Part shown: positions 11,527-61,231 of the stretch, piece by piece
Numbering within the stretch: the stretch's first letter is position 1
How the letters are laid out: each line of letters begins with the position of its first letter
NCBI GenBank assembly: GCA_018711305.1
Contig: DVIL01000074.1
Span: 1-64,000 of the forward strand
Length of the DNA stretch: 64,000 nt
Origin: Candidatus Coprenecus stercorigallinarum
Lineage (GTDB): Bacteria > Bacteroidota > Bacteroidia > Bacteroidales > UBA932
Direction of reading: 5' to 3'
Notes under the pieces: generated by a model
What the model saw: only the letters and a program-made list of their open reading frames with translations
What the model was told of the DNA's origin: nothing
The model's database searches: none
Made by a program: the position numbers and the translations under genes

Positions 11527-13095
11527 TCATTTCTCCTCCGCGAGCAGCCCGTCGATGTCGGAACAGATGGCGGTGCCGGAAGCGTAGTCCCAAAGGGTGA
11601 CGGAGCGGATGTTGTAGTAGTAGTACCAGTAGTAATAGAGTTGCTGGACGTAGTCCTGGCGGGCGAGGTCCTTGGCGTCGCGGGCGTCGTTGAGCTCGAG
11701 GACGCTCATGCGGCCGAGCAGGAAGGATTCGACGGAGGCCTGATAACGGGCCGAGGCCACACGGTCGGACTCCTGGGCGAGGGTGAGCTGGCCGGCCTGG
11801 TTGTTGAACTGCTCGGTAAGCAGGAATATATCCTGGTTGAAGTTGAGTTCCTCCTGCTGAAGCTGGGAGCGGACCACGTCGCGGTTGCTCTCGGCCACTT
11901 TGACCTGCCCCTTGCGCTTGCCCCAGTCCAGAATCGGAATCGACAGTCCGATAGACACCACTTCCTGGTCCCGAATGTCGTTGTAGGCCATGGCCAGCTC
12001 GCGGTTCACTCCGGAGTATCCGACTGTCACGTTCAGGTCCACCTGGTACCGCTGGCCCTTGGCTGTGGCTACATCGTAGTCGGCTTCGAGTTTGCGGCGC
12101 AGGATGTTCTGGGCAAATGAGCTGTTGGACAATGCCTTGCTGAGTACATCCTCATAGTCGAGCACAGGCAGGGGAATGGCTTCCGGCAGCACGGCCCGGA
12201 TGGTATCGTTTTCAGAGAGGCCGAGGAAGGCTCTGAGGGAGAACATGGCGGAGTTCAGACTGCTGCGGCAGGAGGTCACCTCTGCCTTGGCCTGCAGGGC
12301 AGAGAGGCTCAGCTGCATAAGCTCGGTCTCGGATATCTGTCCTATGGTCCGCCGCTCCTTGGCGATGGCATAGAGCTTGTCGGCGTTCTCGAGGTTCTGC
12401 TCGGCTATCTTCAGGTTCTCCACGGCGAGGATATAATTGAAAAAATAAGTGACCGTATTCATCTTGACTGTCTCCATGTCCTCGATGTAGGCGGCCCGGG
12501 ACTCGGCGTAACGCACAGGTTCAATTTTCTTGTCCCAACGGAAGGTGTTGACGGAAAACAGAGGCTGGTTGAGGGTCAATGCCACAGGCGCGGCCATGAA
12601 CTCGTTGTATCCGTTCGCCCCCAGCTGCCGCGTCATGTCCAGGCCGGTGGTCAGGGAGACAGTACCTCCGGTAAACGGAATGTTCTGGGTCACGGACAGT
12701 TCTCCGGTAAGTCCCAGCCAGTTGCTGCGCACGTAGCTGTAGGTTCCGTCGGCATTCTGGTAGGAATTGTAGTTGTTGTTGAATGTCGGGAGAGTGCCGT
12801 TGAAGACCAGTTCCGGCAGTCTCTCCGCCTTGTAGGTCCGGTACTGCCAGTATGCGCTCTTTAGCTGGTTAAGAGCCACCGCCGCATCCACCGACTGCCC
12901 GCAGGCCAGGTCCATCGCCCCCTCGAGGGTCAGCTCCATCACGCCGCCCTCCTGTGTCCCGTCCATCCCATCCGGGACATTGCCCATTTCCGGCAGGACG
13001 CTCTCACCGGTATCCTGCGCCGCCAGTCGCTGCCCCGGCACCGCTACCAGCAGCACCGCAATAATCATTGCCGTTTCCCGAAAAATACGTTTCAT
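11527..13095 (-). CDS. TolC-family outer-membrane efflux protein (exporter operon, last gene)
   Basis: A 522-residue outer-membrane channel of the TolC/OEP family with a cleavable signal peptide (MKRIFRETAMIIAVLLVAVPGQRLAAQ). Two OEP repeats of long periplasmic helices are visible: residues about 60-270, containing ENLKIAEQNLENADKLYAIAKERRTIGQISETEL, and about 300-500, containing QEELNFNQDIFLLTEQFNNQAGQLTLAQES. It would form the trimeric exit duct for the ABC exporter encoded just upstream. It is last in the operon, 39 bases after permease B4. The N-terminal 30-residue Gly/Glu-rich segment after the signal peptide is a linker of no known role. It is not the same protein as the RND-linked TolC at 55303. 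Confidence 0.9.
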   Translation of the reverse strand: MKRIFRETAMIIAVLLVAVPGQRLAAQDTGESVLPEMGNVPDGMDGTQEGGVMELTLEGAMDLACGQSVDAAVALNQLKSAYWQYRTYKAERLPELVFNGTLPTFNNNYNSYQNADGTYSYVRSNWLGLTGELSVTQNIPFTGGTVSLTTGLDMTRQLGANGYNEFMAAPVALTLNQPLFSVNTFRWDKKIEPVRYAESRAAYIEDMETVKMNTVTYFFNYILAVENLKIAEQNLENADKLYAIAKERRTIGQISETELMQLSLSALQAKAEVTSCRSSLNSAMFSLRAFLGLSENDTIRAVLPEAIPLPVLDYEDVLSKALSNSSFAQNILRRKLEADYDVATAKGQRYQVDLNVTVGYSGVNRELAMAYNDIRDQEVVSIGLSIPILDWGKRKGQVKVAESNRDVVRSQLQQEELNFNQDIFLLTEQFNNQAGQLTLAQESDRVASARYQASVESFLLGRMSVLELNDARDAKDLARQDYVQQLYYYWYYYYNIRSVTLWDYASGTAICSDIDGLLAEEK

Positions 13096-13134: not shown

Positions 13135-14442
13135 CTACTCTTCCCTGAGCGCTTCCGAAGGCCGCATCCCTGTGACTTTCCACACGGAGAGGAGGGCCGC
13201 CAGGGCATTTATCAGGAATATCGTTCCGGCCACAATCACTGTCACCACGACTCCCGACAGGAAGCCGGACGTAATCAGAGGCCACGGTGCCATCGACTCG
13301 GCGGACGGATATGCACCGTAACGCACTGCTCCCAGCACTGCCGGTTCTCTTCCCATTGCAAGGGAAAGGTTGAATACGATCAGCACTCCTATGCCGACAG
13401 CGACAGCAGTTATTCCCACGCTCTGCAGCATGGCGTCCAGTCTCAGCCGGGAAGGCGTCGCTCCCATGGCAGTACGGACTCCATATTCGTCCTTGCTCTT
13501 GCGAGAATACAGAAGCCAGAATGACAGCACGCCCAAGGCCATGTTCAGGAGCAGGAACACAATACCGACACGGTAGAAAGTCACATCCTGATTGCTTTGC
13601 ACCTGATTGAGCATAGGCCATGCACTTCTGGCCCGCACGTTGCCGAATGCCGCCTGCGATGATGAGAGCCGGAGATTGACAGCCGCCGTAAGCTCATCCA
13701 TATCCGTACCCGGCTCAGCACGCACCGCCCATCCGGCATAACCGTTGGCTATATCGGAGTTCAGCCCGGACGCCCTGACATTGACAATCATCACGGGCAC
13801 AGGGACTCCGGTAGTCTCCCATACCTTCTGGCGGGACACCACCCCGACTATCGTGTTGGAGCCGCTCTCGTTGGTATCGAAAGACCTGCCTATCGGATTC
13901 TCCCCGGGGAACAGGAACTCCGCAAGATCCTCCGAGACAATCACCCTTCCGGGTATATCCTGTTCAGGAGGCAGACCTCCCTCCGGTAATACCCACCGGT
14001 AGCCCAAGGTCCCGATAAAGTCACTGCCGGTCACTCTATGCATCACGGCGCAACTGATAAAATGGGAAGAATCCCGGAATGCCCCGACAAAATGCTGATT
14101 GTTCACCCCTGGGGAAAACGCCCCGTAGGGAGTGACGGCCTCCGCACCTTCTACAGATGCCAAAAGTTCTCCCATCTGATTGAAATTACCCAAAACACGC
14201 TCAGGATCAGCCGCAGCGGCATCATACATCGGATCGTAATCCGGCAGCACCCTAACAGGTACCATCAGTACCTTCTCCGGCTCCCAGCCCATCGGGATCA
14301 GAGCCTTGCGCAGCTGTTTCATAATCTCCTCATCGGCCAGCAGCCAGCCTACCGTAAACACCATGACGGTCTCTATGACAAACCATGTCCGGCTCATTCT
14401 GTTCTTGTGTCTCTTTCTCATGGCAGATTTACTGTTTTTCAT
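13135..14442 (-). CDS. FtsX/MacB-like ABC permease B4 (divergent B type)
   Basis: A 435-residue permease with one N-terminal helix (WFVIETVMVFTVGWLLA), a large periplasmic MacB_PCD-like domain (about 45-270) and three C-terminal helices of the FtsX fold ending in MRPSEALREE. It pairs with the A-type permease upstream (A4) and is the most divergent of the four B-type proteins: the MLKQIFKQLWFYRR leader of the others is replaced by a basic Lys/Arg-rich stretch. Translation may begin at ATG 14442, overlapping the A4 gene by 14 bases, or at ATG 14421; neither has a clear ribosome-binding site. It likely forms a heterodimer with A4 powered by the single ATPase of the operon. Confidence 0.85.
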   Translation of the reverse strand: MKNSKSAMRKRHKNRMSRTWFVIETVMVFTVGWLLADEEIMKQLRKALIPMGWEPEKVLMVPVRVLPDYDPMYDAAAADPERVLGNFNQMGELLASVEGAEAVTPYGAFSPGVNNQHFVGAFRDSSHFISCAVMHRVTGSDFIGTLGYRWVLPEGGLPPEQDIPGRVIVSEDLAEFLFPGENPIGRSFDTNESGSNTIVGVVSRQKVWETTGVPVPVMIVNVRASGLNSDIANGYAGWAVRAEPGTDMDELTAAVNLRLSSSQAAFGNVRARSAWPMLNQVQSNQDVTFYRVGIVFLLLNMALGVLSFWLLYSRKSKDEYGVRTAMGATPSRLRLDAMLQSVGITAVAVGIGVLIVFNLSLAMGREPAVLGAVRYGAYPSAESMAPWPLITSGFLSGVVVTVIVAGTIFLINALAALLSVWKVTGMRPSEALREE

Positions 14443-15727
14443 TCAACGAATCGACAACACTGGACCTCATAGTCCTCAATACCGGGATAAGGGAGGAGAG
14501 CAGATTGAGCAGCAGCACGCTCATAAACACAGCCGCATAGACGTCAACCCGCAGGAACATATCCGTCGGGAAGACCAGATCAGCCTGCAGCACCCCCGTT
14601 CCATATCCGGATTTGGAGCCGGCCAGCACCGGAGAGAGCAGCCTCAGCAGACCGCCGGCACAAAACATTCCTGCCAGTCCTCCGATCAGAGTCAGGAGGA
14701 AATTCTCCGAAAGCACCTGCTTCACCAGCACCCCGGCCGAAGCCCCATAGGCCTTGCGCACTCCGAACTCGGCAATCCGCTCCTCCACGCTGGAAGACAC
14801 CATGCCGCTCAGATTGACTGCCGGAATAAGCATCAGCAGGAGCACCATCGCAGCGATTGCCGAGATGAATACTCCGACATGGGCATCTGTGGACGCGCCC
14901 AAATAGGTCAGAGGGACAGTCTCCTCCGGGGATATGTACATGCCGTCAGCCTTGCCGAACGAGGCATTGTATCTGGCTATCACCTCCTCTACCCCTGCCC
15001 TGATTGCAGGGAAATCCCTGCGGCTGCCGGCCAGCAGGCACATCATGTCAGTTCCTACGTAAGGCTCGTTGTGAATGAGCGAAGCCATCTCGCGGCCCAT
15101 CTGTATTGGCAGCCATATCCCAGCATCGGCAAGCATGGCCATAACTGACACGTCCCGCACCACCCCGCATATTCTGAGCGACGTACCGCCGTACATAAGT
15201 TCCCTTCCGGCCGCATCCTCGGTGCCGAAACATCTGCGTGCCGTAGTGGCGGACAGCACCGCCTCGGGGAGCGCCGGATTCCATTCTCCGGAAGGGGCCC
15301 TGCCGGAAATGAACTCGAACTGACAGACTTCCCAGAAGCCGTCATCCACATACAGTTCAGGAACGGTGACAATCCCTCTGCCCGGAACTTCCAGATCCAC
15401 TCCCTTGGTCAGACCGGAATAGGTAATCACGGCCGTATTCTCCACCCCATCAATACCGGCATCCTCCAACAGGGCTGCGAAACGGGAGCTGACCATAGTA
15501 TTCAGCTTGGGATTCCCGTCCTCATCACACAGGAGTACGCTGCCTATGAGCATCATTCTGTCACGGTCTCTTTCAGGGTAAATACTTCTGGAAGCCATCA
15601 GGACAAACATCAGAAACGCCATGATGAAAGCCATGGACAGAGTGACGCCCACTATGTAAAGCAGGCTGTACTGCCGGTTCTTAAGCATTATCTGCCAGCT
15701 CTGGCGGAGGTAAACGGGGAGTTTCAT
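14429..15727 (-). CDS. FtsX/MacB-like ABC permease A4
   Basis: A 432-residue A-type permease: first helix YSLLYIVGVTLSMAFIMAFLMF, periplasmic domain about 45-275 containing the PERDRDRMM motif shared by all A paralogues (PETHRDRMM in others), then three helices with LSGMVSSSVEERIAEFGVRKAYGAS, a signature of this set, and the tail SSVVDSLNEKQ. It is encoded 12 bases after the ATPase gene and directly before B4. FtsX-fold permeases of this kind do not move substrate through the inner membrane but drive it from the periplasm through TolC by mechanotransmission; the substrate is unknown. Confidence 0.87.
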   Translation of the reverse strand: MKLPVYLRQSWQIMLKNRQYSLLYIVGVTLSMAFIMAFLMFVLMASRSIYPERDRDRMMLIGSVLLCDEDGNPKLNTMVSSRFAALLEDAGIDGVENTAVITYSGLTKGVDLEVPGRGIVTVPELYVDDGFWEVCQFEFISGRAPSGEWNPALPEAVLSATTARRCFGTEDAAGRELMYGGTSLRICGVVRDVSVMAMLADAGIWLPIQMGREMASLIHNEPYVGTDMMCLLAGSRRDFPAIRAGVEEVIARYNASFGKADGMYISPEETVPLTYLGASTDAHVGVFISAIAAMVLLLMLIPAVNLSGMVSSSVEERIAEFGVRKAYGASAGVLVKQVLSENFLLTLIGGLAGMFCAGGLLRLLSPVLAGSKSGYGTGVLQADLVFPTDMFLRVDVYAAVFMSVLLLNLLSSLIPVLRTMRSSVVDSLNEKQ

Positions 15728-15739
15728 CTTTTCTCTTTT

Positions 15740-16405
15740 TTATCCGATGATACGGCCGTCGAGCATACGGACGATGCGGTCGGTCTGCTTGGCCTGGGAC
15801 TCGTTGTGGGTCACCATCAGGATGGTCTTGCCGCGCTGCTTGTTGACCTCGTGCAGGAGCTCCATGACCTCGGCTCCCATCTTGGAGTCCAGGTTACCGG
15901 TGGGCTCGTCCGCAAGGATGATCGAGGGGTCTCCGACAAGGGCACGGGCGATGGCAACTCTCTGGCACTGACCTCCGGAAAGCTGTGAGGGGAAATGCTT
16001 CACCCTGTGGCTCAGTCCCACGGCCTCGATCATCTTCATGGCCCTTTCCTTGCGCTCGGTCGCTCCCATCTTGCGGTAAAGCAGGGGCATCTGCACGTTG
16101 TCCAGGACGTTGAGCGAGGGAATCAGGTGGAAGCTCTGGAATACAAAGCCTAACTCTGTGTTGCGGAAGCGGGCGGCCTCCCGGGCGTTGAGTCCGGAAA
16201 CGGCCTTGCCGTGCAGCTCCACGGTGCCGGAAGAAGGCTCGTCGAGCAGGCCTGCGATGTTGAGCAGGGTGGACTTTCCGCAGCCGGAAGGTCCCATGAT
16301 ACTTACAAACTCCCCGTCGCGCACTTCGAGGTTGATGTTGTCGAGAGCCATGGTCTCGATCTCGGAGGTTCTGTAGATTTTGGAAATTTCGATAAGCTTG
16401 ATCAT
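15740..16405 (-). CDS. ABC transporter ATP-binding protein (MacB-N/LolD type)
   Basis: A 221-residue stand-alone nucleotide-binding subunit of the LolD/MacB/FtsE group. Walker A is GPSGCGKST (38-46), the Q-loop Gln is at 90 (GFVFQSF), the signature is LSGGQ (142-146), Walker B is IILADEPTG (162-170) and the H-loop is VTHN. All catalytic residues are intact. It is the only ATPase in an operon with eight permease genes, sitting between pairs three and four. Either one dimer serves several permease pairs, or only some pairs assemble at a time. MacB itself is a fusion of such a domain to a permease; here they are separate. Confidence 0.94.
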   Translation of the reverse strand: MIKLIEISKIYRTSEIETMALDNINLEVRDGEFVSIMGPSGCGKSTLLNIAGLLDEPSSGTVELHGKAVSGLNAREAARFRNTELGFVFQSFHLIPSLNVLDNVQMPLLYRKMGATERKERAMKMIEAVGLSHRVKHFPSQLSGGQCQRVAIARALVGDPSIILADEPTGNLDSKMGAEVMELLHEVNKQRGKTILMVTHNESQAKQTDRIVRMLDGRIIG

Positions 16406-16458: not shown

Positions 16459-17763
16459 TTATTCGTCCTTGAGCACATCCGCCGGCGACTCCCTGAGGGC
16501 TCCGAGCACGGGCACAATGGTCGAGAGGGTCACTACCACGAACAGCACGGCGGCAGTGATGCCGGCCACGGCGAGGAAGTGGCGGACAGGCTCGAACAAT
16601 ACCGGCAGGCTGTCAATGACGACGTCATTCAGATAGCCGGCATAGAGGGCGGTGGCACAGAAGTCGATCTTGCCTATGACAAGGACATTGATCACTATCA
16701 CCAGCCCTACAATCAGGGAAATGAGGAAGAGAATCCACACCTCGGCGAGCTGCTGCAGGACGATGCTGCCCACAGGTCCGCCCATGGCACGGCGCACTCC
16801 GGTCTCCCCCCGCCTCTCCTGTGTCCTCAGCCATGCGAAGGAGGCCACACCTATGAGGATGCACACTAACAGGAAGACGAAGAGGGCCCGCCACATGAAG
16901 GTGTCGTTCACGGTTGACTCCAGATTGCTCTCCAGCGCACTGACGGATGCCACCCTCCAGTTGCCGAAAGCAAGGTCCTCCCTCCATGTCTTCTTGGCCT
17001 GCTGTATGAAGGCTTCCCCGTCCACACCGGGAGCCAGACGGAATATCCACACTACGGACATCCCTTTATCGAGAGCCACGATATCGGCCCCGGCATACAT
17101 CACGAAACTCCGGTACTCCTTGTCCTTCTCGATCTTTACGGGTGCAATCACGCCTGAGATGCGCCAGTTGTACGCCGCATAGTTGCTGAACTGCGAGAGA
17201 CGGCGGCCTACGGGATTCTCCCCGGGGAAAAGCATCTGAGCCAGATCCTCGGTGATGATTACAGTGTTCGGAAGGTCCTCTATCGGAGCTCCCTGCGGCC
17301 ACACCTGCCGGTACTGCAGCAACTGCAGGTCGCTTGCCCCTGCCTCGCGGATATGGTACGCATACTGCACATAAGCCTTGCTTGCGGTATCTGTAATTAC
17401 CGCCTGGTTGTAGTTGCTGTAGTTCAGGCCGGGAAGAGTGGCACCGACCGGAGCCGCGTCCTGTATCTCCGACATCTCCCTGAGAGCGTTGCCGATACGG
17501 TGAAAGTCCTCCGATATGTGCTCCGGAGTATCCATCTCCGGACGGTATCCGCTCTGTCCCACTCCCAAGCGGTCGAGCGTGACGGCATACACTCCCTCCG
17601 CCTCGTATCCGTCCGGAAGATGAGTACGGTATATCCCGGGCCATACGGCATTGACCAGAAACCACGATGCTGCCGCGATGAGAGTCATCTCTATGAAAAG
17701 CCAGGCATTGCCGCGGCGGTAGTACCAGAGCTGTTTGAATATCTGTTTAAGCATAGCTGTCAT
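16459..17763 (-). CDS. FtsX/MacB-like ABC permease B3
   Basis: A 434-residue B-type permease with the common leader MLKQIFKQLWYYRR at residue 4 onward, first helix WLFIEMTLIAAASWFLVNAVW, a periplasmic domain of about 230 residues (EGVYAVTLDRLGVGQSGYRP..., FPGENPVGRRLSQF) and three C-terminal helices ending SPADVLKDE. Its start overlaps the A3 stop by one base (TAATG), so the pair is translationally coupled. A 53-base AT-rich gap with a TTTTGCAAAA palindrome separates it from the ATPase gene. Confidence 0.87.
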   Translation of the reverse strand: MTAMLKQIFKQLWYYRRGNAWLFIEMTLIAAASWFLVNAVWPGIYRTHLPDGYEAEGVYAVTLDRLGVGQSGYRPEMDTPEHISEDFHRIGNALREMSEIQDAAPVGATLPGLNYSNYNQAVITDTASKAYVQYAYHIREAGASDLQLLQYRQVWPQGAPIEDLPNTVIITEDLAQMLFPGENPVGRRLSQFSNYAAYNWRISGVIAPVKIEKDKEYRSFVMYAGADIVALDKGMSVVWIFRLAPGVDGEAFIQQAKKTWREDLAFGNWRVASVSALESNLESTVNDTFMWRALFVFLLVCILIGVASFAWLRTQERRGETGVRRAMGGPVGSIVLQQLAEVWILFLISLIVGLVIVINVLVIGKIDFCATALYAGYLNDVVIDSLPVLFEPVRHFLAVAGITAAVLFVVVTLSTIVPVLGALRESPADVLKDE

Positions 17764-19082
17764 TATTTTGCAGAGTTCAGTGAATCAGTGATGGGCCGGC
17801 GGATAACCTTGGCGGCAGGTATCAGGGCCGAGACAATATTGAGTACCAGGACTATCGCCAAAAGCAGCACATAGAGCTTGAGCCTGAAGAAATCCCGGAC
17901 GGAGAACACCGCGGCCTCCACTTCCTCCATGGAGAAAGCCGTTGCCATGGCCTCCCCTGGCACCATGCCGTTGAGCTGTTCCGAGAACACGCCTAAAAGC
18001 AGGTAGGACAGGACGAGTCCGAGAACTCCGCCCAGTAGGGTCAGCAGCAGGTTCTCGCCCGTAATCTGCTGCAGCACGTCCCCCCGCCAGGCCCCGAAGG
18101 ACTTGCGCACTCCGAACTCACTCATGCGGGCCTCCATGCGGGAGCCGACCATGCCGGAGAGATTGATCATCGGTATCAGCAGGATGAAGAACATGATGCC
18201 TATCCCTATCCATGTAAACGAGGCAGAGGTCATGCCGGTCCATCTCAGGGCCATCTCCCTTACCGAGGGTATCCCGGTCTGGTAGGAGTACACCCACTCC
18301 ACGTCAGAGCCGTTGTTGTACCTTTCGAGCCTGCCTTCCAAAGTCTCCCGTATGGCCCTGAAGTCGCTCCTGTCCCGGGCGAGCAGATACACGAAGTACT
18401 CTCCGAGCAAGGTAGGACGGCCTATGAACTGCTTCAGCCCGGCACTCCGGGCGTCTCCGTCCAGGTCCGGAAGCCACAGCTGGGAGAAAGCGAACGAGGC
18501 CGTCTGCGGCACATCCCGCACCACTCCGCACACCCGGAACTCCCGGTCATTGATGAAAATCCTCTCCCCCACTATATCCTCCCGGCCGTACAGAGCCCTG
18601 GCAAGCGACCCGCAGACCACCGCCTCTGGCGCGGCCTGGTTCCAGCTCGTCTCCGACAGGGCGTGACCGTAGAGGAAATCCAGCTCGAAGACCTTCCAGT
18701 ACTCCGTATCCACGTTTGAGGCCACGCTGCTTACCGCCTCACCCAAGTCATTGACCACCATCGCCGGCTCATAGGCCACAGCCGTCAGAGCCTCCAGGCC
18801 CTCCACCGGCTCGTTCCGGATGAAGCGGTCGATGAATTCCTGGCTGACCCGTGCGTTGGATCCGCCTTCAGAGCCCCGTTGGGCCTCCACAAACGTGGGA
18901 ATCACCAGCATCCTGTCCCTGTGCACCTCCGGATAGGAGTTGTCGAAGTGCATCGACTGCACCGTCAGGTAAGCCATCACCAGCGCCAGCGAGAAGCCCG
19001 TACCGATGATATAGACCGCGCTGTACACCCTCGACTTGCGCAGGTCGTACCACGCCTCTTTTATATACATTCCAAGTTTCAT
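17763..19082 (-). CDS. FtsX/MacB-like ABC permease A3
   Basis: A 439-residue A-type permease, the longest of the set. First helix YSAVYIIGTGFSLALVMAYLTV, PEVHRDRMLVIPTF at the start of the periplasmic domain, GMVGSRMEARMSEFGVRKSFGAWRGDVL preceding the FtsX helices, and the tail RRPITDSLNSAK. It is very close in sequence to A2, suggesting recent duplication. It begins 19 bases after B2. Confidence 0.87.
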   Translation of the reverse strand: MKLGMYIKEAWYDLRKSRVYSAVYIIGTGFSLALVMAYLTVQSMHFDNSYPEVHRDRMLVIPTFVEAQRGSEGGSNARVSQEFIDRFIRNEPVEGLEALTAVAYEPAMVVNDLGEAVSSVASNVDTEYWKVFELDFLYGHALSETSWNQAAPEAVVCGSLARALYGREDIVGERIFINDREFRVCGVVRDVPQTASFAFSQLWLPDLDGDARSAGLKQFIGRPTLLGEYFVYLLARDRSDFRAIRETLEGRLERYNNGSDVEWVYSYQTGIPSVREMALRWTGMTSASFTWIGIGIMFFILLIPMINLSGMVGSRMEARMSEFGVRKSFGAWRGDVLQQITGENLLLTLLGGVLGLVLSYLLLGVFSEQLNGMVPGEAMATAFSMEEVEAAVFSVRDFFRLKLYVLLLAIVLVLNIVSALIPAAKVIRRPITDSLNSAK

Positions 19083-19101
19083 ATTTTCTCCTTTTTCTGA
19101 T

Positions 19102-20400
19102 TTATTCGTCCTTTAAAATATCGGCCGTCCTCTCCCTCAGAGCCTTGCCGAGGGGGATCAGGGCCGCGAGGGTCACCGCAGCCAGCAGCACCGCCGTCAC
19201 TATCCCCGCCACCGCGAGAAAATGGACCGTCGGGTCGTAGAGCAGCGGCAGGCTGTCATAGAGCACCGGCAGCACCTGACCATGCGGGGCAGCGATGTCT
19301 ATCTTGCCTATGACAATGATATTGACGGCCAGGATAAGTCCCAGTACCAACGCAGCGCCGAAAATCAACCACGCCTCGGCCAGTTGCTGCAGGACAATTC
19401 TACCTGCATCCGAACCCAAGGCCCGCCGCACCCCTATCTCGGAACGCCGCATCCTGAGTCTGAGCCAACTGAAGGAAGCCATTGCTATGAGCACATTGGC
19501 TATCAGGAATACCCAGAGCGCCTTCCATTTGAATATTCCGGTAACGACATACATTCCCATCAGTTCCTCCATCGGAGCCACCGAAGCAACTCGCCAATTG
19601 CCGTATGTCATCTCACTGCGCCAGGTCCGGGAAGCCCGGTCAATGAAAGCGCGGGCATCCACATCCGGACGGATACGGAAGATATAGCACGGGGTACCGT
19701 ACCAGAAATTCAGGACACTGACATCGGAGGCCAGTACTGTCGGCACGGGATCCTCGTCAAAACTGAACTTCAGGGGTTCGACAACTCCGGATATCACCCA
19801 GTCCCACTCCTTTGGAGGAGGGCAGGAGGAGGCATCCGAAAGCCGGCGGCCCACCGGATTCTCTCCGGGAAAGAGAGTCATGGCCAGGTCATTGGTTATC
19901 ACGGCCGACCCGGGAACATCCTCTATCGGAGCATCCTTGGGCCATACCTGACGATAGTTCAGAATCTCCATGTCGCGGGCTCCGGTCCTGCGGGTGTGGA
20001 TACAATAGTATATGTTGTTCTCTGCAGAAGAGTCCACAGGAAAGAAATTATTGATGTAATTGCTCTTCAGTCCGGGAAGAGAAGCGCCGGTCTCCGCCCA
20101 TTCGCTCACCTCCGGCATCAGGTCCAGAGCCTGCCCGAAGCGTTCTAGTGCCTCCTTCCGAGCATTTCCCATGTCCGCTTCCGGGGCATAGCCGTCCTGC
20201 CCGTCATACAGGGATTCGAGCTTCATCACATACACGCCCTCGTAATCATAGCCGTAAGGCGCCCTATCCGCGCGGTAGTGCACGGTCCATATCTCATTGA
20301 CCAGAAACCAGGAGGTAACCACTATCACTACCAGCTCCAGCAGCAGCCAGAGGCTGTTCCTGCGGTAGAACCACAACTGTTTGAATATCTGTCTGAGCAT
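19102..20400 (-). CDS. FtsX/MacB-like ABC permease B2
   Basis: A 432-residue B-type permease starting MLRQIFKQLWFYRR, with first helix LWLLLELVVIVVTSWFLVNEIW, a periplasmic domain including LFPGENPVGRRLSDA, and three terminal helices ending RERTADILKDE. The segment RRSEIGVRRALGSDAGRIVLQQLAEAW, just before the FtsX helices, is shared with B1 and B3. It starts 6 bases after the A2 stop. Confidence 0.87.
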   Translation of the reverse strand: MLRQIFKQLWFYRRNSLWLLLELVVIVVTSWFLVNEIWTVHYRADRAPYGYDYEGVYVMKLESLYDGQDGYAPEADMGNARKEALERFGQALDLMPEVSEWAETGASLPGLKSNYINNFFPVDSSAENNIYYCIHTRRTGARDMEILNYRQVWPKDAPIEDVPGSAVITNDLAMTLFPGENPVGRRLSDASSCPPPKEWDWVISGVVEPLKFSFDEDPVPTVLASDVSVLNFWYGTPCYIFRIRPDVDARAFIDRASRTWRSEMTYGNWRVASVAPMEELMGMYVVTGIFKWKALWVFLIANVLIAMASFSWLRLRMRRSEIGVRRALGSDAGRIVLQQLAEAWLIFGAALVLGLILAVNIIVIGKIDIAAPHGQVLPVLYDSLPLLYDPTVHFLAVAGIVTAVLLAAVTLAALIPLGKALRERTADILKDE

Positions 20401-20406
20401 ACCTGT

Positions 20407-21702
20407 CTATTTTTTAGAGTTCAACGATTCGGTAATGGGCCTGCGCAGTACCTTGAAGGCCGGCACCATGGCAGACAGCAGATTGAGGACAACCACCAGC
20501 ACGAACAGCAGGAGGTAGAGCTTCAGCCGGAAGAAATCCCTGAAGACAAATGCGGGAGCTTCGGCTATTCCCCGTATATCCGCCACTCCGTTCAGCGGCA
20601 GCAGGTCATAGAGCTGGTCCTGCAGCAGGTACAGCAGGAGGTAGGAAAGCAGCAATCCGAGCACACCCCCAAACAGCGTCAGCAACAGGTTCTCCGCCGT
20701 CACCTGACGGATGATGGCCCCGCGCCAGGCTCCGAATGACTTGCGCACTCCGAACTCGGCCATGCGGGCCTCCATCCCGGAGCCGGTCATGCCTGAAAGG
20801 TTGAGCACCGGCACGAGCAGAACCAGCAGCACCACACCGATACCGATCCAGCGGTAAGCCACGGCGCTGCCGAGCATGAATATCCGTTCTTTCTGGGAAG
20901 GTATGCCGTGGGTAAATGTCATCTGCCAGTCATCGCCTCCTGTGCTGTTGTACATCTCCACACGGTCCTCTATCTCCTGGCGCACCCGGCCGAAGTCTCT
21001 CCGGCTGTCGGCCAGCAGCACTATCTCGTAACTGCCCTGCATCCCCCCAAGCGAGGGCACGAGAAGACGCTCAAAGAATGTCTCGATATCCGGAGCCCAG
21101 ATCTGGGCAAAGGCATAGGTAGCCGTCATCGGCACATCCCGGACGACTCCGCAGATGCGAAATTCCCGGCTGTCGAAAAATACTGTCTCACCTGTCACAT
21201 CCTTGCGGCCGAAAAGCAGCACTGCCGCAGACTCGGAAATCATAATTTCAGGCACCGCCCGGTCAGCGGCATCTTCGGGCATCCAGGTACCGTCGGTTAC
21301 ATCAAGCGGGAATATTTTCCTGAAATCAGTGTCAATGAACTCCACCACCATATTCACGGACTCGCGGGAGGCTGTGGTAACTATGAAGTTGTCTGTCTTC
21401 ACAGCTGTCCAGGCCTCGAGTCCGGGGATGGGCGCGGAGAGGAACCTCTGCATAAAATCCTTGTTCACACCACGTTCACGCACAGACCGGGCGTTACTGT
21501 GTGTGTACGTCATGGAGGGTATCGACAGCATCCGGTCGCGGTGCGTCTCCGGATAGATGTTGTCCATACGTACAGACTGCACCGTCAGGTAGGTCATGAC
21601 CATGGCCATCGAGAAAGCGACAGCCAGAATATACACCAGACCGTAGGTCCTGTCCGCCAAAAGGTTGTGCCACGATTCCCTGAAATATACTCCTATCTTC
21701 AT
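20407..21702 (-). CDS. FtsX/MacB-like ABC permease A2
   Basis: A 431-residue A-type permease. First helix YGLVYILAVAFSMAMVMTYLTV, PETHRDRMLSIPSM, GMTGSGMEARMAEFGVRKSFGAWRGAII before the three FtsX helices, tail RRPITESLNSKK. It begins 3 bases after the adaptor gene stop, so the adaptor and this pair are tightly coupled. Confidence 0.87.
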   Translation of the reverse strand: MKIGVYFRESWHNLLADRTYGLVYILAVAFSMAMVMTYLTVQSVRMDNIYPETHRDRMLSIPSMTYTHSNARSVRERGVNKDFMQRFLSAPIPGLEAWTAVKTDNFIVTTASRESVNMVVEFIDTDFRKIFPLDVTDGTWMPEDAADRAVPEIMISESAAVLLFGRKDVTGETVFFDSREFRICGVVRDVPMTATYAFAQIWAPDIETFFERLLVPSLGGMQGSYEIVLLADSRRDFGRVRQEIEDRVEMYNSTGGDDWQMTFTHGIPSQKERIFMLGSAVAYRWIGIGVVLLVLLVPVLNLSGMTGSGMEARMAEFGVRKSFGAWRGAIIRQVTAENLLLTLFGGVLGLLLSYLLLYLLQDQLYDLLPLNGVADIRGIAEAPAFVFRDFFRLKLYLLLFVLVVVLNLLSAMVPAFKVLRRPITESLNSKK

Positions 21703-21705
21703 AAC

Positions 21706-22965
21706 TTATTTCTTTTTAGACGGTTTGATTTTCAGTTCCGGCTGCCTGGAGTAGTCCTGCATGTCGGAGATGACCACCTGCTCGCCCGGCTCGATGCCGG
21801 AGATGACCTCCACATAGTCGTAGTTGGCCTCGCCGAGAGCCACGCGGCGGCGGACCAGACGGTCACCCTCGCGGACGAAGAGGTCGTAATTGCCCTCACC
21901 CTTGTAATATGTGCCCGAGGGCAGGCGGAGGACATTCTCGCGGTAGGCGTAGACCACGTAGATGTCGCACTTCAGGCCAGAGCGCAGGCCCGGGGCAGAC
22001 TCGTTGTCGAGCTGTACGGTAAAGGATATCAGACCGTCGGTGGACATCGGGGAGAGTACCGACACCATGCCGATGAGGGTGTCCCGTCCGGCCAGCACTG
22101 TAGTCCGGTAGCCCTCGGCTATCTTCCCGGCCTGCATGTCGCCCAGCTCGCCCTCCACCTTGAAGCGGGTGAGGTCGGCCAGCATCGCCAGCTTCTCGCC
22201 CTGCCCCACCTGGGCGCCTATCTCGCTGTTGATGAACGTAAGGGTCGCAGCGTAGGGCGCACGGACACCCGCGTCGTAGAGCCGGCGGCGGGTCTGCTCC
22301 TTGTTCTTGCGGAAGATGGACAGCTCCAGCTCGGCCACGGCTTCATCAGCGGCGGCCAGATCCCGCTGGTTCTGCAGTTTGCGGCGGTTGTCCTCCAGCT
22401 TGAGCGACGACACCGTGTAGTCCAGCTCGGCCTCGCGCACCTTGTCCGGAGTACCTGCCCCGAGGGAGTCCAGATACTTCTCGTTGCGCAGGGAAGCCGC
22501 CTTGCGGTCCAGCTCCATCTCCTGAATCTCGATATTCATCTCCATCTCCGAGATGCTGTTACGGTTGGTGATACGCAGCTGTTCCAGTTTCAGTTCCTTC
22601 ATCCGCTCCTCGTCCAGCATATTGTCGTACTCGGTCTGCACCTCCGAGAGTTCCAGGCGCAACAGGGGTTCACCCGCCTGCACCACCTCTCCTGCCCGCT
22701 TGTAAACCTCCATCACACGGGAGGTAATCGGGGAGTTGATGATCTCCTCGTAGCCCGGCACCACCTTTCCGGTAGCCGACACCGCGAAATCTATCGAACC
22801 GGTGTCCACCGTTGCGAGCCTCAGGCTGCTCTCCTTTACCGAAGGCTGAATCAGCACTGCCAGCAGCACCACCGCCACCACGACAGCCGCGCCGCCCGCA
22901 CTCCAGCGGATGATGACTTTGCGGCGGTCCTGCCATTTTTCTTTTGTTGTAAGTTCTCTATCCAT
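21706..22965 (-). CDS. HlyD/MacA-like periplasmic adaptor (membrane fusion protein)
   Basis: A 419-residue adaptor linking the ABC permeases to TolC. A cytoplasmic tail is followed by one transmembrane anchor (about 20-42, AAVVVAVVLLAVLI). Then come a first half-lipoyl segment (about 60-100, ATGKVVPGYEEIINSPITSRV), a long coiled-coil hairpin (about 105-245), the second half-lipoyl segment with VRAPYAATLTFINSEIGAQV, and beta-barrel and membrane-proximal domains ending in a Lys-rich tail. It is anchored by a helix rather than a lipid, unlike the RND adaptor at 54283. It is the only adaptor in the operon, placed between permease pairs one and two. Confidence 0.92.
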   Translation of the reverse strand: MDRELTTKEKWQDRRKVIIRWSAGGAAVVVAVVLLAVLIQPSVKESSLRLATVDTGSIDFAVSATGKVVPGYEEIINSPITSRVMEVYKRAGEVVQAGEPLLRLELSEVQTEYDNMLDEERMKELKLEQLRITNRNSISEMEMNIEIQEMELDRKAASLRNEKYLDSLGAGTPDKVREAELDYTVSSLKLEDNRRKLQNQRDLAAADEAVAELELSIFRKNKEQTRRRLYDAGVRAPYAATLTFINSEIGAQVGQGEKLAMLADLTRFKVEGELGDMQAGKIAEGYRTTVLAGRDTLIGMVSVLSPMSTDGLISFTVQLDNESAPGLRSGLKCDIYVVYAYRENVLRLPSGTYYKGEGNYDLFVREGDRLVRRRVALGEANYDYVEVISGIEPGEQVVISDMQDYSRQPELKIKPSKKK

Positions 22966-23004: not shown

Positions 23005-24327
23005 TTACTCGTCTCTGAGGGCCTCGACGGGCGGCCGGCGGAGCGCTCCGGCAGCGGGAATGAGGATTGCTACGGTCACCGCCAGCAGCATGGTTCCTAA
23101 GACAATCCCCTCCACCGCGAGGAAGTGCGCCACGGGATCGAAGAGCAGAGGGAAGTCAGCGGCATTGAGGGGCAGACTGCCTGTAAAATTCTGCGGGGCC
23201 GTAATGTCTATCTTGCCGATAAGCAGTACATTGAGCGTTATCAGTATTCCGAGGACAGCTGCCGTAGCGAAGATGATCCAGACCTCGCTCATGTAGTGCA
23301 GGAGAATGCCGCGGGGAGAGTCTCCCATTGCCCTGCGGACACCTATCTCACCGCGCCGCTCCTCCATCCGGAGCCAACCGGTCGAGGCTACTGTCAGCAG
23401 AGCATTGATTATCAGGAAAATGAAAATGGCATTCCAGATAAAATTGCTGTCCAATACCGTCAGCTGCACATAGCTGTCGATACGCTCCTGATAACTGAAC
23501 ACATCGCTGACCCGGTAATTCCCAAAACGAAGGGTCTTTCTCCACTCTAAGCCAGCCTTCCCGATAAATTCCTCAGCATCCACACCGGGCTTGAGGCGGA
23601 AGGCGCAGCATATCTCATCCATGGCATAGGCGGCGAAATCGGGAATGTTCATGAAAACTGCCGGGACATTGTCCGAGCAGCCGTTGGACCTGATACTGCG
23701 GATTACTCCCACGATCGGAGTTGTCCAGCCGTACTCCATATCCGGCTCGGCACAGGCCGACTCGAGGTTCCTGCCTATAGGATTCTCGCCCGGAAATACG
23801 TACTCGGCGAGATCCTCCGTGATAATCATAGACATGGGCTGGGAGTCGTCTATCCTGCCGTTCTCGGGCCATACCACCTCATAGCCGAACACCTCGAAAT
23901 CATCCGGTCCCATAGCCCTGTCAATTGCCAGCAGAGTAATGTATGTCACACTGTCAAGCTCGAGACCTCCTGCGGATATAGGGCCCAGTCCAGGGTTGGA
24001 ATCCGTTATGGGCGCCGCGCACAGTACTTCCGGCATACTCTTGATCCGGTCCATTATGCGGCCGAAATCCCGTGACCACGCTTCCTCGCCGTCAGCCTGC
24101 GGGTCGTAATCCCTATTGCCGGACTGCAGCAGGTCGAACGATACGACGTACACGCCCTCGTACTTCATCCCGTCCGGCACAGCATTGATGCGGTAGCGGG
24201 GAGTCCAGGTCTGATGGACGAGGAACCATGAGACAGCGATTATGATCACCAGCTCGATGAAAAGCCAGGAGTTGCTCCTGCGGTAGAACCACAGCTGTTT
24301 GAATATCTGTTTGAGCATATCTGTCAT
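23005..24327 (-). CDS. FtsX/MacB-like ABC permease B1
   Basis: A 440-residue B-type permease with MLKQIFKQLWFYRR from residue 4, first helix WLFIELVIIIAVSWFLVHQTW, a periplasmic domain (EGVYVVSFDLLQSGNRDYDP, FPGENPIGRNLES) and terminal FtsX helices with RRGEIGVRRAMGDSPRGILL and tail RRPPVEALRDE. The start overlaps the A1 stop in an ATGA. An internal ATG three codons in (24318) matches the start seen in B2 and is an alternative. Confidence 0.87.
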   Translation of the reverse strand: MTDMLKQIFKQLWFYRRSNSWLFIELVIIIAVSWFLVHQTWTPRYRINAVPDGMKYEGVYVVSFDLLQSGNRDYDPQADGEEAWSRDFGRIMDRIKSMPEVLCAAPITDSNPGLGPISAGGLELDSVTYITLLAIDRAMGPDDFEVFGYEVVWPENGRIDDSQPMSMIITEDLAEYVFPGENPIGRNLESACAEPDMEYGWTTPIVGVIRSIRSNGCSDNVPAVFMNIPDFAAYAMDEICCAFRLKPGVDAEEFIGKAGLEWRKTLRFGNYRVSDVFSYQERIDSYVQLTVLDSNFIWNAIFIFLIINALLTVASTGWLRMEERRGEIGVRRAMGDSPRGILLHYMSEVWIIFATAAVLGILITLNVLLIGKIDITAPQNFTGSLPLNAADFPLLFDPVAHFLAVEGIVLGTMLLAVTVAILIPAAGALRRPPVEALRDE

Positions 24328-25616
24328 TTTTTATAGTTCAACGATTCGGTGATGGGGCGCCGGATGACCTTGGCGGCAGGTATCAGGGCCGATACAAGGT
24401 TGAGCACCAAGATGATTCCCAGCAGAGCCAGGTACAGCCAGAGCTTGAAGAAATCCCTGAAATCGAAGAATCCCGAATCGGGAATCTCTCCCATCTGCGA
24501 TATATTGTCCATGAAACTGCCTGGCACCAGTGAGTTGAGCTGACGCGAGAACAGGGCGATGATCAGCCAAGCGGCCAGCAGGCCCACAACTCCACCGATA
24601 ATGGTCATCAGCAGGTTCTCCCCCGCTATCTGGGCTATGATGGAGCGGGGTCCGGCCCCGAACGACTTGCGGGTACCGAACTCGGTCAGACGGGCCTCCA
24701 TGCGGGAGCCCACCATGCCCGAGAGATTGAGCAGCGGCACTATAAGGATAATCAGCACCACTCCTATGCCCAGCCACGTATATGCCGCCGAGCTCAGCTC
24801 GCTCCAGGCGAACAGCGACTTGCGGTAGGAGTCGAACGACTTCAGTTCCATCGTTATACCATTTGCCTCCGCATGCCGGCTCACTCTGCCGGTTATCTCC
24901 TCCTTGATAATGCCGAAATCCGATCTGTCCTCAGCTAAAATCAGCAGCGTTCCCATTCCAAGAAGTCCGCTCGGAGAGAAGTCGCTGTCCTCGCTCAGGC
25001 TCTGAGGCAGCCATACTCCGGCAAAAGCCGTGACAGCACTCATCGGCACATCCCTTACGACTCCGCATACGGTCATTGTGTGCCCGCCAAAGTAAACCGT
25101 CTCGCCTACCGCATCCGTCCGGCCGAACAGACTCCGCGCCGTGGACTCCGATATGACGGTCTCGGCAGTATTGGGCACCATCCCGTTCTGCGATATCGCC
25201 CGTCCTTCAATGAAATCGTAGTCGAACACCTTCCAGAAATCCAGATCCACATATTTCCCGTACACCTTCGTCACCTCCTCTTCCCCGCTCTCCAGCACCA
25301 CAAAACCTCCGGTCGCCGGACATGCCACAGACCAGACCTCCACTCCAGGCACATCCCGCATGAACTGCTCCGCGAACTTTGAGGTCACTCCGCTCTGCCA
25401 GTACGTCTCGTCATTCATCTCAGCAACCGATTTGAGCACCATCATCCTGTCCCGGTGCGTCTCCGGAACCGTGTTGACCACCCTCGACGACAACACCGTC
25501 AGGAAGGCCATCACCAGCGACAGCGACAGAGCCGTCCCTGCAATGAACACGGCACTGTACACCCTGTTCATCCGTAGGTTGTACCATGCCTGCTTGAAAT
25601 ACATCCTTAATTTCAT
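24324..25616 (-). CDS. FtsX/MacB-like ABC permease A1 (first gene of the exporter operon)
   Basis: A 430-residue A-type permease and the promoter-proximal gene of the operon. First helix YSAVFIAGTALSLSLVMAFLTV, then PETHRDRMMVLKSV opening the periplasmic domain, GMVGSRMEARLTEFGTRKSFGAGPRSII before three C-terminal helices, and tail RRPITESLNYKK. It lies about 145 bases downstream of the predicted sigma-54 transcription start. Its role as half of a heterodimer with B1 is inferred from gene pairing and the consistent A/B sequence classes. Confidence 0.88.
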   Translation of the reverse strand: MKLRMYFKQAWYNLRMNRVYSAVFIAGTALSLSLVMAFLTVLSSRVVNTVPETHRDRMMVLKSVAEMNDETYWQSGVTSKFAEQFMRDVPGVEVWSVACPATGGFVVLESGEEEVTKVYGKYVDLDFWKVFDYDFIEGRAISQNGMVPNTAETVISESTARSLFGRTDAVGETVYFGGHTMTVCGVVRDVPMSAVTAFAGVWLPQSLSEDSDFSPSGLLGMGTLLILAEDRSDFGIIKEEITGRVSRHAEANGITMELKSFDSYRKSLFAWSELSSAAYTWLGIGVVLIILIVPLLNLSGMVGSRMEARLTEFGTRKSFGAGPRSIIAQIAGENLLMTIIGGVVGLLAAWLIIALFSRQLNSLVPGSFMDNISQMGEIPDSGFFDFRDFFKLWLYLALLGIILVLNLVSALIPAAKVIRRPITESLNYKK

Positions 25617-25773
25617 ATACTGTTTTTTATCCGTTTCTTCATTATTTCTTCCGTCTCACATCTCCTTTCCCTTCCCTATTTCCTTCCGCATCACATCTTT
25701 CTTTTCCCCCAATTTCCCCTCATCACAAAGTCCACCCTTAAAGCGGACACTCCTATCCCCCGCACAGCACACG

Positions 25774-25788
25774 GCAACCACCGTGCCA
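25774..25788 (-). promoter_or_regulatory. sigma-54 (RpoN) promoter of the exporter operon
   Basis: Read on the minus strand, TGGCACGGTGGTTGC matches the -24/-12 consensus TGGCACG-N4-TTGC at every defined position. Transcription would start near 25762, leaving a leader of about 145 bases before permease A1. Such promoters stay silent without an AAA+ NtrC-family activator. Confidence 0.85.
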
Positions 25789-25843
25789 CTTTTATATCGT
25801 ACTGATTAACAAATATTTACAAACATAAAACAGTGTGCGAAAA

Positions 25844-25867
25844 CGGACAACTGTCCGATATCGGACA
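25844..25867. promoter_or_regulatory. upstream activator sites for an NtrC-family regulator
   Basis: CGGACA-AC-TGTCCG-ATAT-CGGACA forms two overlapping inverted repeats; TGTCCGATATCGGACA (25852-25867) is a perfect 16-bp palindrome. It lies about -82 to -105 from the inferred start. Two further CGGACA half-sites follow at 25885-25890 and 25899-25904, and one lies downstream of the promoter at 25744-25749. The regulator is not encoded in the window. Confidence 0.7.
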
Positions 25868-25919
25868 CCTCCCGGCGGTCAATCCGGACACCCTGTTGCG
25901 GACAGAAACACAGCATGCG

Positions 25920-26001
25920 GAGGCACCGCGGCTATTCCACTCCTTCCGAAGGAGTAAGGAAAATGCGGGTATGGCCGACCCCTTCCGAAGGAGTCAGAAG
26001 G
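25920..26001 (+). repeat. 82-bp repeat with paired palindromes, copy 1
   Basis: The unit starts GAGGCACCGC and holds two copies of the palindrome (A)CTCCTTCCGAAGGAGT separated by about 20 bases of conserved linker (aatgcgggtatggccgac). The second palindrome has a mismatched left arm here. Confidence 0.85.
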
Positions 26002-26036
26002 GTTAGAAAACGAATAACGGATTCACAACGCCTACA

Positions 26037-26118
26037 GAGGCACCGCAGCAATTCCACTCCTTCCGAAGGAGTAAGAAAAACGCGGGTATGGCCGACCACT
26101 TCCGAAGGAGTCAGAAGG
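26037..26118 (+). repeat. 82-bp repeat with paired palindromes, copy 2
   Basis: It shares the same organisation and nearly the same sequence as copy 1, 117 bases downstream. The linker reads acgcgggtatggccgacc. Confidence 0.85.
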
Positions 26119-26740: not shown

Positions 26741-27026
26741 CATACCAAAAGGCGGTTTCGCACCGCCACACCTTTCCGTCCGTCCGACCCATCCTTCCAT
26801 CCCATCCTTTCCTTCCGCAGGTGAACCGATACGCGGTATTTTTCAGGCACCTGAGACTCCTGCAAAATTTATCTCCCGCATCTGAACTTTGTCTGCAAGG
26901 TTAAAATATTGTGATAATGATGATTGCGAGAACTCTTCCGGTTCAGATGCCGCATAGCCATAGTCAGACTTTGCAGGTACCGGAGAGGTTCTGACGAAAA
27001 TGAAAAACAGGGGCACAGCGCACATA

Positions 27027-27108
27027 GAGGCACCGCAGCAATTCCACTCCTTCCGAAGGAGTGAGAAAAACGCGGGAATGGCCTACTCCTTCCGAAGGAG
27101 TGAAAGGG
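27027..27108 (+). repeat. 82-bp repeat with paired palindromes, copy 3
   Basis: Here both palindromes are intact (CTCCTTCCGAAGGAGT at about 27046 and 27085). It lies about 1 kb from copies 1 and 2 and about 80 bases past the hemW stop codon, read from the other strand. Confidence 0.85.
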
Positions 27109-60235: not shown

Positions 60236-61231
60236 TTAGTCTACGAGTGAGATGCGCTTGAAGACGGTTACCTTGGCCTCTTTGTCAACGGCTGCAATAG
60301 CTGCCTTTACAGAGGTCTTGCCGTCGCCCATCTGGTACTCCTGCTCCTCAAGGGTATTCTCCTTGAAGAACTTGTTGAGACGGCCGTTGGCGATGTTGTT
60401 GACCATGGCCTCCTGGAGGTTGGCGGCCTTCTCGGCGGAGACAGTCTTGATGATCTCGCGGGCCTGGTCAGCCTGCTCGGGGGTGAGCCAGCCTTTGGCA
60501 GTGTTGGACTGGATGTGGTCCTCGCTGTCTACGTGGGCAGGGTTGATTCCGGCCTTGGTGAGGGCTGCATCAACAGCCTTCTTGACGAGTTCTTCCTTGG
60601 TCTTCTCTACGGCCACTTTGAGCTCCTCGTCGATCACATTCTGAGGCACGGCCTCTTTGTTGACAGCGACGGGATTCATAGAAGCCACCTGCATGGCCAC
60701 GCCCTTTGCAAGATCGAGGGGAACTTCCTTGTTGAAGCCTACGATGGCACCGAGCTTGCCGTTGATGGTGTGGATGTAGGAAATGATGTAAGGAGCCTCT
60801 ACTTTCTCGTATGCTACAAGAGAGTGCTTCTCACCTGTCTTGCCTATCTGTTCGGTGATGGCAGCCTCCACTGTACGGCCATCTGCAATGGTGCAGGCCT
60901 TGAGGGCTTCCATGTCAGCAGGCATAGCTTTGATGGCTGCGTCTGCAATAGCATTTGCAAGTGCCTGGAACTCCTCGTTCTTGGCTACGAAGTCTGTCTC
61001 GCAGCCGAGGCAGAGCAGTATTCCCTTGCTGCCGTCAACCTTTGCTACTACTGCACCCTCGGAGGTCTCGCGGTCAGCCCTCTTGGCAGCCACGAGCTTA
61101 CCTTTCTCGCGGATGATCTCCTTTGCTCTCTCGTAATCGCCGTTAGCCTCGATGAGGGCCTTTTTGCAGTCCATCATACCGGCTCCGGTCATCTTGCGAA
61201 GCTTCTGAACATCTATTGCTTTGATTTCCAT
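60236..61231 (-). CDS. tsf: elongation factor Ts
   Basis: A 331-residue EF-Ts, the nucleotide-exchange factor for EF-Tu. [44 protein letters not shown] is the conserved N-terminal UBA-like domain. The core with [23 protein letters not shown] and a C-terminal subdomain with [19 protein letters not shown] and [18 protein letters not shown] follow. The length suits Bacteroidetes EF-Ts. It is the last gene of the ribosomal operon, 18 bases after rpsB. Confidence 0.97.

Follow-up and report, generated by a model that had tools for sequence, protein, structure and literature searches.

Polymerase carrying sigma-54 (RpoN) waits in a closed complex until an activator at upstream sites hydrolyses ATP. 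The closest described systems are of the NtrB/NtrC type, in which a regulator composed of a receiver, an AAA+ domain and a Fis-type HTH works with a partner kinase on a -24/-12 promoter, by way of palindromic sites arranged in tandem upstream, about 70-140 bp from the start. For the Bacteroidia, COG0577 (antimicrobial-peptide ABC permease) and FtsX-like permeases were predicted to be under sigma-54 control in a 2025 survey, which presented this as the first evidence of such a link (PMC12316311). Promoters were scored statistically in that work, and its passages on these permeases name no activator or upstream site for them.

The locus described here agrees with the survey in gene class, bacterial class and sigma factor, and shares with the NtrB/NtrC type the features listed above; in contrast with the latter, its target is an exporter rather than nitrogen genes, and its upstream site is TGTCCG-N4-CGGACA. 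We compared the window, a stretch of 64,000 nucleotides from Candidatus Coprenecus stercorigallinarum analysed as a whole, with related genomes, mostly metagenome bins. We conclude, at a probability of roughly 0.9, that an eleven-gene tripartite exporter operon is transcribed from a sigma-54 promoter that is switched on by a response regulator and kinase, EBP_A and HK_A, through TGTCCG-N4-CGGACA palindromes. This fits well with the sigma-54 control of FtsX-type exporters that the survey had already predicted, to which it adds a regulator, a site and a spacing.

The sigma-54 promoter and its operon

The promoter and the genes that follow it are, in the direction of transcription:

25774-25788, minus strand: sigma-54 -24/-12 element TGGCACGGTGGTTGC, a consensus match conserved in sister genomes
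25762, minus strand: predicted transcription start (+1), 12 nt past the C of the -12, placed from the sigma-54 consensus
24324-25616, minus strand: MacB/FtsX-type permease 1, first gene (Pfam MacB_PCD and FtsX)
23005-24327, minus strand: MacB/FtsX-type permease 2 (domain search)
21706-22965, minus strand: HlyD-family periplasmic adaptor (domain search)
16459-21702, minus strand: four further permeases, at 20407-21702, 19102-20400, 17763-19082 and 16459-17763 (similarity, orthologues)
15740-16405, minus strand: ABC transporter ATPase of the LolD/MacB type (domain search)
13135-15727, minus strand: two further FtsX-type permeases, at 14429-15727 and 13135-14442 (domain search)
11527-13095, minus strand: TolC-like outer-membrane efflux protein, last co-directional gene (domain search)

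The initial annotation had proposed a sigma-54 promoter at 25788-25774, and this proposal is borne out. The element lies in non-coding DNA, 158 bp 5' of the ATG (25616) of permease 1, and fits the GG-N10-GC core within TGGCAC-N5-TTGC(A/T). Pattern searches, on which all genome-wide statistics given here are based, found TGGCACN5TTGC without mismatch at four places in the 2.14-Mb assembly; a second of these is in the window, at 60745, and falls within coding sequence. With one mismatch allowed, TGGCACG-type sites showed no enrichment over the reversed control in this genome (48 versus 47). A TGGCACGNNGNTTG(T/C)-like element precedes the orthologous operon in sister genomes; the -12 base is C in the window and T in most relatives (TTGT), and the first T of the -24 is replaced by A in the basal species G152 and in G004, of another genus. 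The absence of rpoN, which had been named as grounds for discarding the promoter, can be set aside, as the genome carries the gene complete, encoding a sigma-54 in which the AID, the core-binding domain and the DNA-binding domain are all present.

Between about +15 and +33 of the predicted leader, at 25748-25730 on the minus strand, we also observed a hairpin resembling a terminator, GTCCGCTTTAAGGGTGGAC, whose short tail contains T; the hairpin is weak and could be an attenuator.

The eleven co-directional genes span 14 kb, no gap between them exceeding about 55 bp, and are predicted to form a single transcript. In the order permease, permease, HlyD, four permeases, ATPase, two permeases and TolC, they encode eight MacB/FtsX-type permeases together with every component of a tripartite exporter: an FtsX/MacB_PCD permease, an ATPase, an HlyD adaptor and TolC. 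Unlike in MacB itself, the ATPase is a separate protein. Of the four further permeases, those at 20407 and 17763 share 45-47% identity with permease 1. Relatives have from one to four or more permease pairs, from which we conclude that a single promoter has come to serve a growing number of permeases.

Two other exact RpoN sites in the genome (TGGCACGCAGTTTGC) are intergenic (G000:C77:40942-40991, minus strand; G000:C95:33728-33778, plus strand; L021, L022, L073-L080). Each precedes a stretch resembling ATAGTTTTTTCATAGGTTAAGT(A/T)TAGGTTAA, which is conserved, together with a strong hairpin terminator, and such loci were found in 8 of 12 sampled genus genomes, with no match in the reversed controls. 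Rfam returned nothing relevant at these other RpoN sites. The loci are reminiscent of a family of small RNAs, about 80 nt long and driven by sigma-54, which looks different from the FopS small RNAs of Bacteroides because these have been reported with sigma-ABfr promoters (PMC11697453).

Half-sites, palindromes and their register

Upstream of the promoter, and once within the predicted leader, the minus strand carries the following sites:

25852-25867, minus strand: candidate activator palindrome 1, TGTCCGATATCGGACA, a perfect TGTCCG-N4-CGGACA with half-sites at -105 and -95, its register kept in sister genomes and G152
25834-25849, minus strand: candidate activator palindrome 2, TGTCCGTTTTCGCACA, with one mismatch and half-sites at -87 and -77, perfect in G063, G099, G152 and G004
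25885-25890, minus strand: extra TGTCCG half-site (-128; CGGACA pattern and relatives)
25899-25904, minus strand: extra TGTCCG half-site (-142; CGGACA pattern and relatives)
25744-25749, minus strand: leader half-site TGTCCG (+14), which doubles as the 5' arm of the weak hairpin

CGGACA occurs on the plus strand at 25844, 25862, 25885 and 25899 and on the minus strand at 25852; a sixth copy is found at 25744. The initial annotation had described CGGACA-AC-TGTCCG-ATAT-CGGACA with three further half-sites around it, and had placed the palindromes 80-150 bases upstream. The letters of this string are correct; its parsing is not, since the unit is a 16-bp TGTCCG-N4-CGGACA that occurs twice, 18 bp apart, and CGGACA-AC-TGTCCG is the junction of the two. 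Among the further half-sites the upstream ones stand, whereas that at 25744 lies downstream of the predicted start. The distance holds for the most part: the sites span about -142 to -72, with the nearer palindrome slightly closer than had been stated. Dyad-symmetric sites at roughly -70 to -150 are what is expected of an NtrC-family enhancer (UAS).

Could the cluster reflect a repeat or some mutational process, with a coincidental RpoN match? CGGACA is over-represented in the window (63 observed versus 35 expected), so that the hexamer is not rare by itself, and the cluster has a family of 94-bp repeats close upstream of it. Nevertheless, five CGGACA/TGTCCG copies fall within 61 bp (25844-25904), and in 200 shuffles of the entire window that preserved dinucleotides the count never exceeded four, in agreement with the clustering first noticed; the 94-bp repeat, moreover, lacks such a palindrome, and the register of the sites is conserved to the base across lineages. 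The same explanation is contradicted by the genus-wide and more distant matches given below, and we regard it as practically negligible. The three intergenic copies of the 94-bp repeat (window positions 25908-26001, 26025-26118 and 27015-27108) each contain two ACTCCTTCCGAAGGAGT-like palindromes.

The pattern TGTCCG-N2..30-TGTCCG-N2..30-CGGACA matched the genome once, at the window site, and its reversed control had no match. The one other TGTCCG-N4-CGGACA of the genome is coding DNA (C67) and the half-site cluster is unique, so no second target, and hence no wider regulon, was found in this genome.

Anchored on the -24, the half-sites at -105, -95, -87 and -77 occupy identical positions in sister species and partly in another genus. 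In a gapless alignment of seven lineages, their mean pairwise identities are 0.92, 0.81, 0.91 and 0.74, respectively, with 0.71 for the -24/-12 element, 0.43 for the spacer that separates them from the promoter and 0.37 further upstream. Both palindromes and GG-N10-GC occur in the window's register in G152, and G004 has one perfect palindrome, also in register; the palindrome of G519 is one base out of register, as is that of G007, which has an imperfect palindrome only, TGTACGAAAATGGACA. Relatives also have extra upstream half-sites at variable positions (-119, -131, -139). The +14 half-site has a counterpart at the matching place in five sister promoters and is missing from the lineage with a cis-linked regulator.

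These values bear on whether the operon is mainly transcribed from a housekeeping sigma-ABfr promoter, with the RpoN site secondary or decayed. The stretch from the palindromes to the -24 element contains a -7-like box, TATGTTTG (minus strand, near 25827), and the -12 alternates between GC and GT among relatives. The box, however, is part of the diverged spacer and lacks conservation, whereas the -24/-12 element and the palindromes are conserved, which makes this explanation very improbable; given the box, a second, basal promoter may exist.

The palindrome combined with TGGCACG was found in 11 of 19 genus genomes, in one of 380 other genomes of the family and in none of the reversed controls; in the sister genomes, the combination precedes the same operon. 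The single family match outside the genus (G166) was set aside, being a 3.5-kb contig that closely resembles genus sequence and is probably misbinned. A blind search of 198 genomes of the order, using DNA only, returned one further match, in G519, from another family; the promoter there heads a HlyD-ATPase-four permeases-TolC-EBP_A-HK_A cluster.

The candidate activator and its kinase

A two-component activator of the NtrC family had been postulated for this operon, and such a pair exists on contig C47. The genome encodes four AAA+ sigma-54 activators, among them EBP_A (C47:1657-2991), an NtrC-family response regulator with receiver, AAA+ (PF00158) and Fis-type HTH domains; it is adjoined by the kinase HK_A (C47:3007-4329). 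At the sequence level, the receiver has a phosphorylatable Asp and a partner kinase, suggesting that EBP_A may be controlled by phosphorylation. Its loop reads GAFTDA instead of the consensus GAFTGA, a first departure from the NtrB/NtrC type; sigma-54 activators with GAFTDA have been described in Desulfovibrio, and the variant is listed as compatible with activation (PMC4641369). HK_A differs from that type as a short-loop membrane kinase with HAMP and PAS domains. Because the loop between its two predicted membrane segments is very short, HK_A may, speculatively, respond to the membrane or to a partner protein and not to a ligand from outside.

In the window's species, EBP_A/HK_A lies in the folA-thyA region, unlinked to the exporter at the hemW locus, and its target is therefore deduced from relatives. 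The initial annotation had suggested looking for NtrC-type regulators near permease operons that share the motif, and these were found in several genomes and genera. EBP_A/HK_A is divergent beside the same operon in G186, G047, G088, G076 and G168, where EBP_A is 82% identical; in sister genomes with enough flank, this operon is the one at hemW. In G152, HlyD-permease-permease-ATPase-TolC-EBP_A-HK_A forms one cluster next to folA, and the same kind of cluster, an exporter ending in EBP_A/HK_A, is present in two other genera (G004, G007) and another family (G519). Regulator copies occur at both places in G168. The simplest history is that of an ancestral folA cluster from which the exporter would have moved to hemW, with some lineages gaining a regulator copy there.

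Among the 19 genus genomes, all 15 with EBP_A have the permease, and three of the four without EBP_A lack it (Fisher p = 0.004, kinship ignored). The fourth, G198, has the permease, and EBP_A was not found in this bin, which is 81% complete and 6% contaminated.

We considered the other activators as candidates. EBP_B was rejected, as it has its own divergent exporter and TTAGACAC repeats upstream in place of CGGACA, and the remaining two were rejected because they are present also in genomes without the operon. The palindromes might instead bind a different factor at a real RpoN promoter, such as a repressor or a one-component regulator. The lack of linkage between EBP_A and the operon in the window's species would agree with this, as would the half-site at +14, a position often bound by repressors. 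However, EBP_A/HK_A is the only regulator that recurrently adjoins palindrome-bearing operons, in four genera and two families, and the fixed distance from palindrome to -24 is expected of an activator that reaches sigma-54. We therefore judge a different factor unlikely, and retain EBP_A as the activator.

The EBP_B/HK_B locus (G000:C55:60467-71142; L024) is a paralogous activator-kinase pair of the same genome, likewise beside a MacB-like exporter, a divergent TolC-HlyD-FtsX-FtsX-ATPase operon. Apart from its upstream repeats, it differs from the window's locus in a weak -12, TGGCACGATAATGGA, and the intergenic gap contains the TGGCACG half of an RpoN site. In five sister genomes, the EBP_B-like gene has one in-frame TAG in the matched region, inside a long open frame of 944-1012 codons (G076:C24, G168:C4, G132:C45, G047:C15, G186:C3:7295-8656). 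In several sister genomes EBP_A is separated from the exporter promoter by an AAA_14/DUF4143 ATPase gene (L041:6362-7648, L042:6598-7884; also L044, L045); this gene is absent there in G088.

Predicted activation and its significance

Taking EBP_A as the activator, RNA polymerase with RpoN would sit closed at 25788-25774 until HK_A phosphorylates EBP_A. Dimers of EBP_A would then bind both TGTCCG-N4-CGGACA palindromes, presumably helped by the outlying half-sites, oligomerise and spend ATP to open the promoter, with transcription from near 25762. As the exporter is at hemW and the regulator near folA in the window's species, this control would be exerted in trans.

A broader scenario, which we offer tentatively and consider rather doubtful, is that of a dedicated Bacteroidales EBP_A regulon, in which the short-loop membrane kinase would sense envelope attack, perhaps via the FtsX permeases, and sigma-54 would switch on the exporter. 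Permease pairs would have increased in number, from one to four, as regulator and operon became separated, and the +14 half-site would add feedback or repression.

The sigma-54 regulons of gut Bacteroidales are poorly known, and here an activator, its likely site, an exact spacing and a target operon are joined by comparison, in a prediction small enough for one protein and one 100-bp DNA. The locus is also an example in which a regulator and its target have lost their linkage, yet the DNA code that connects them has not changed.
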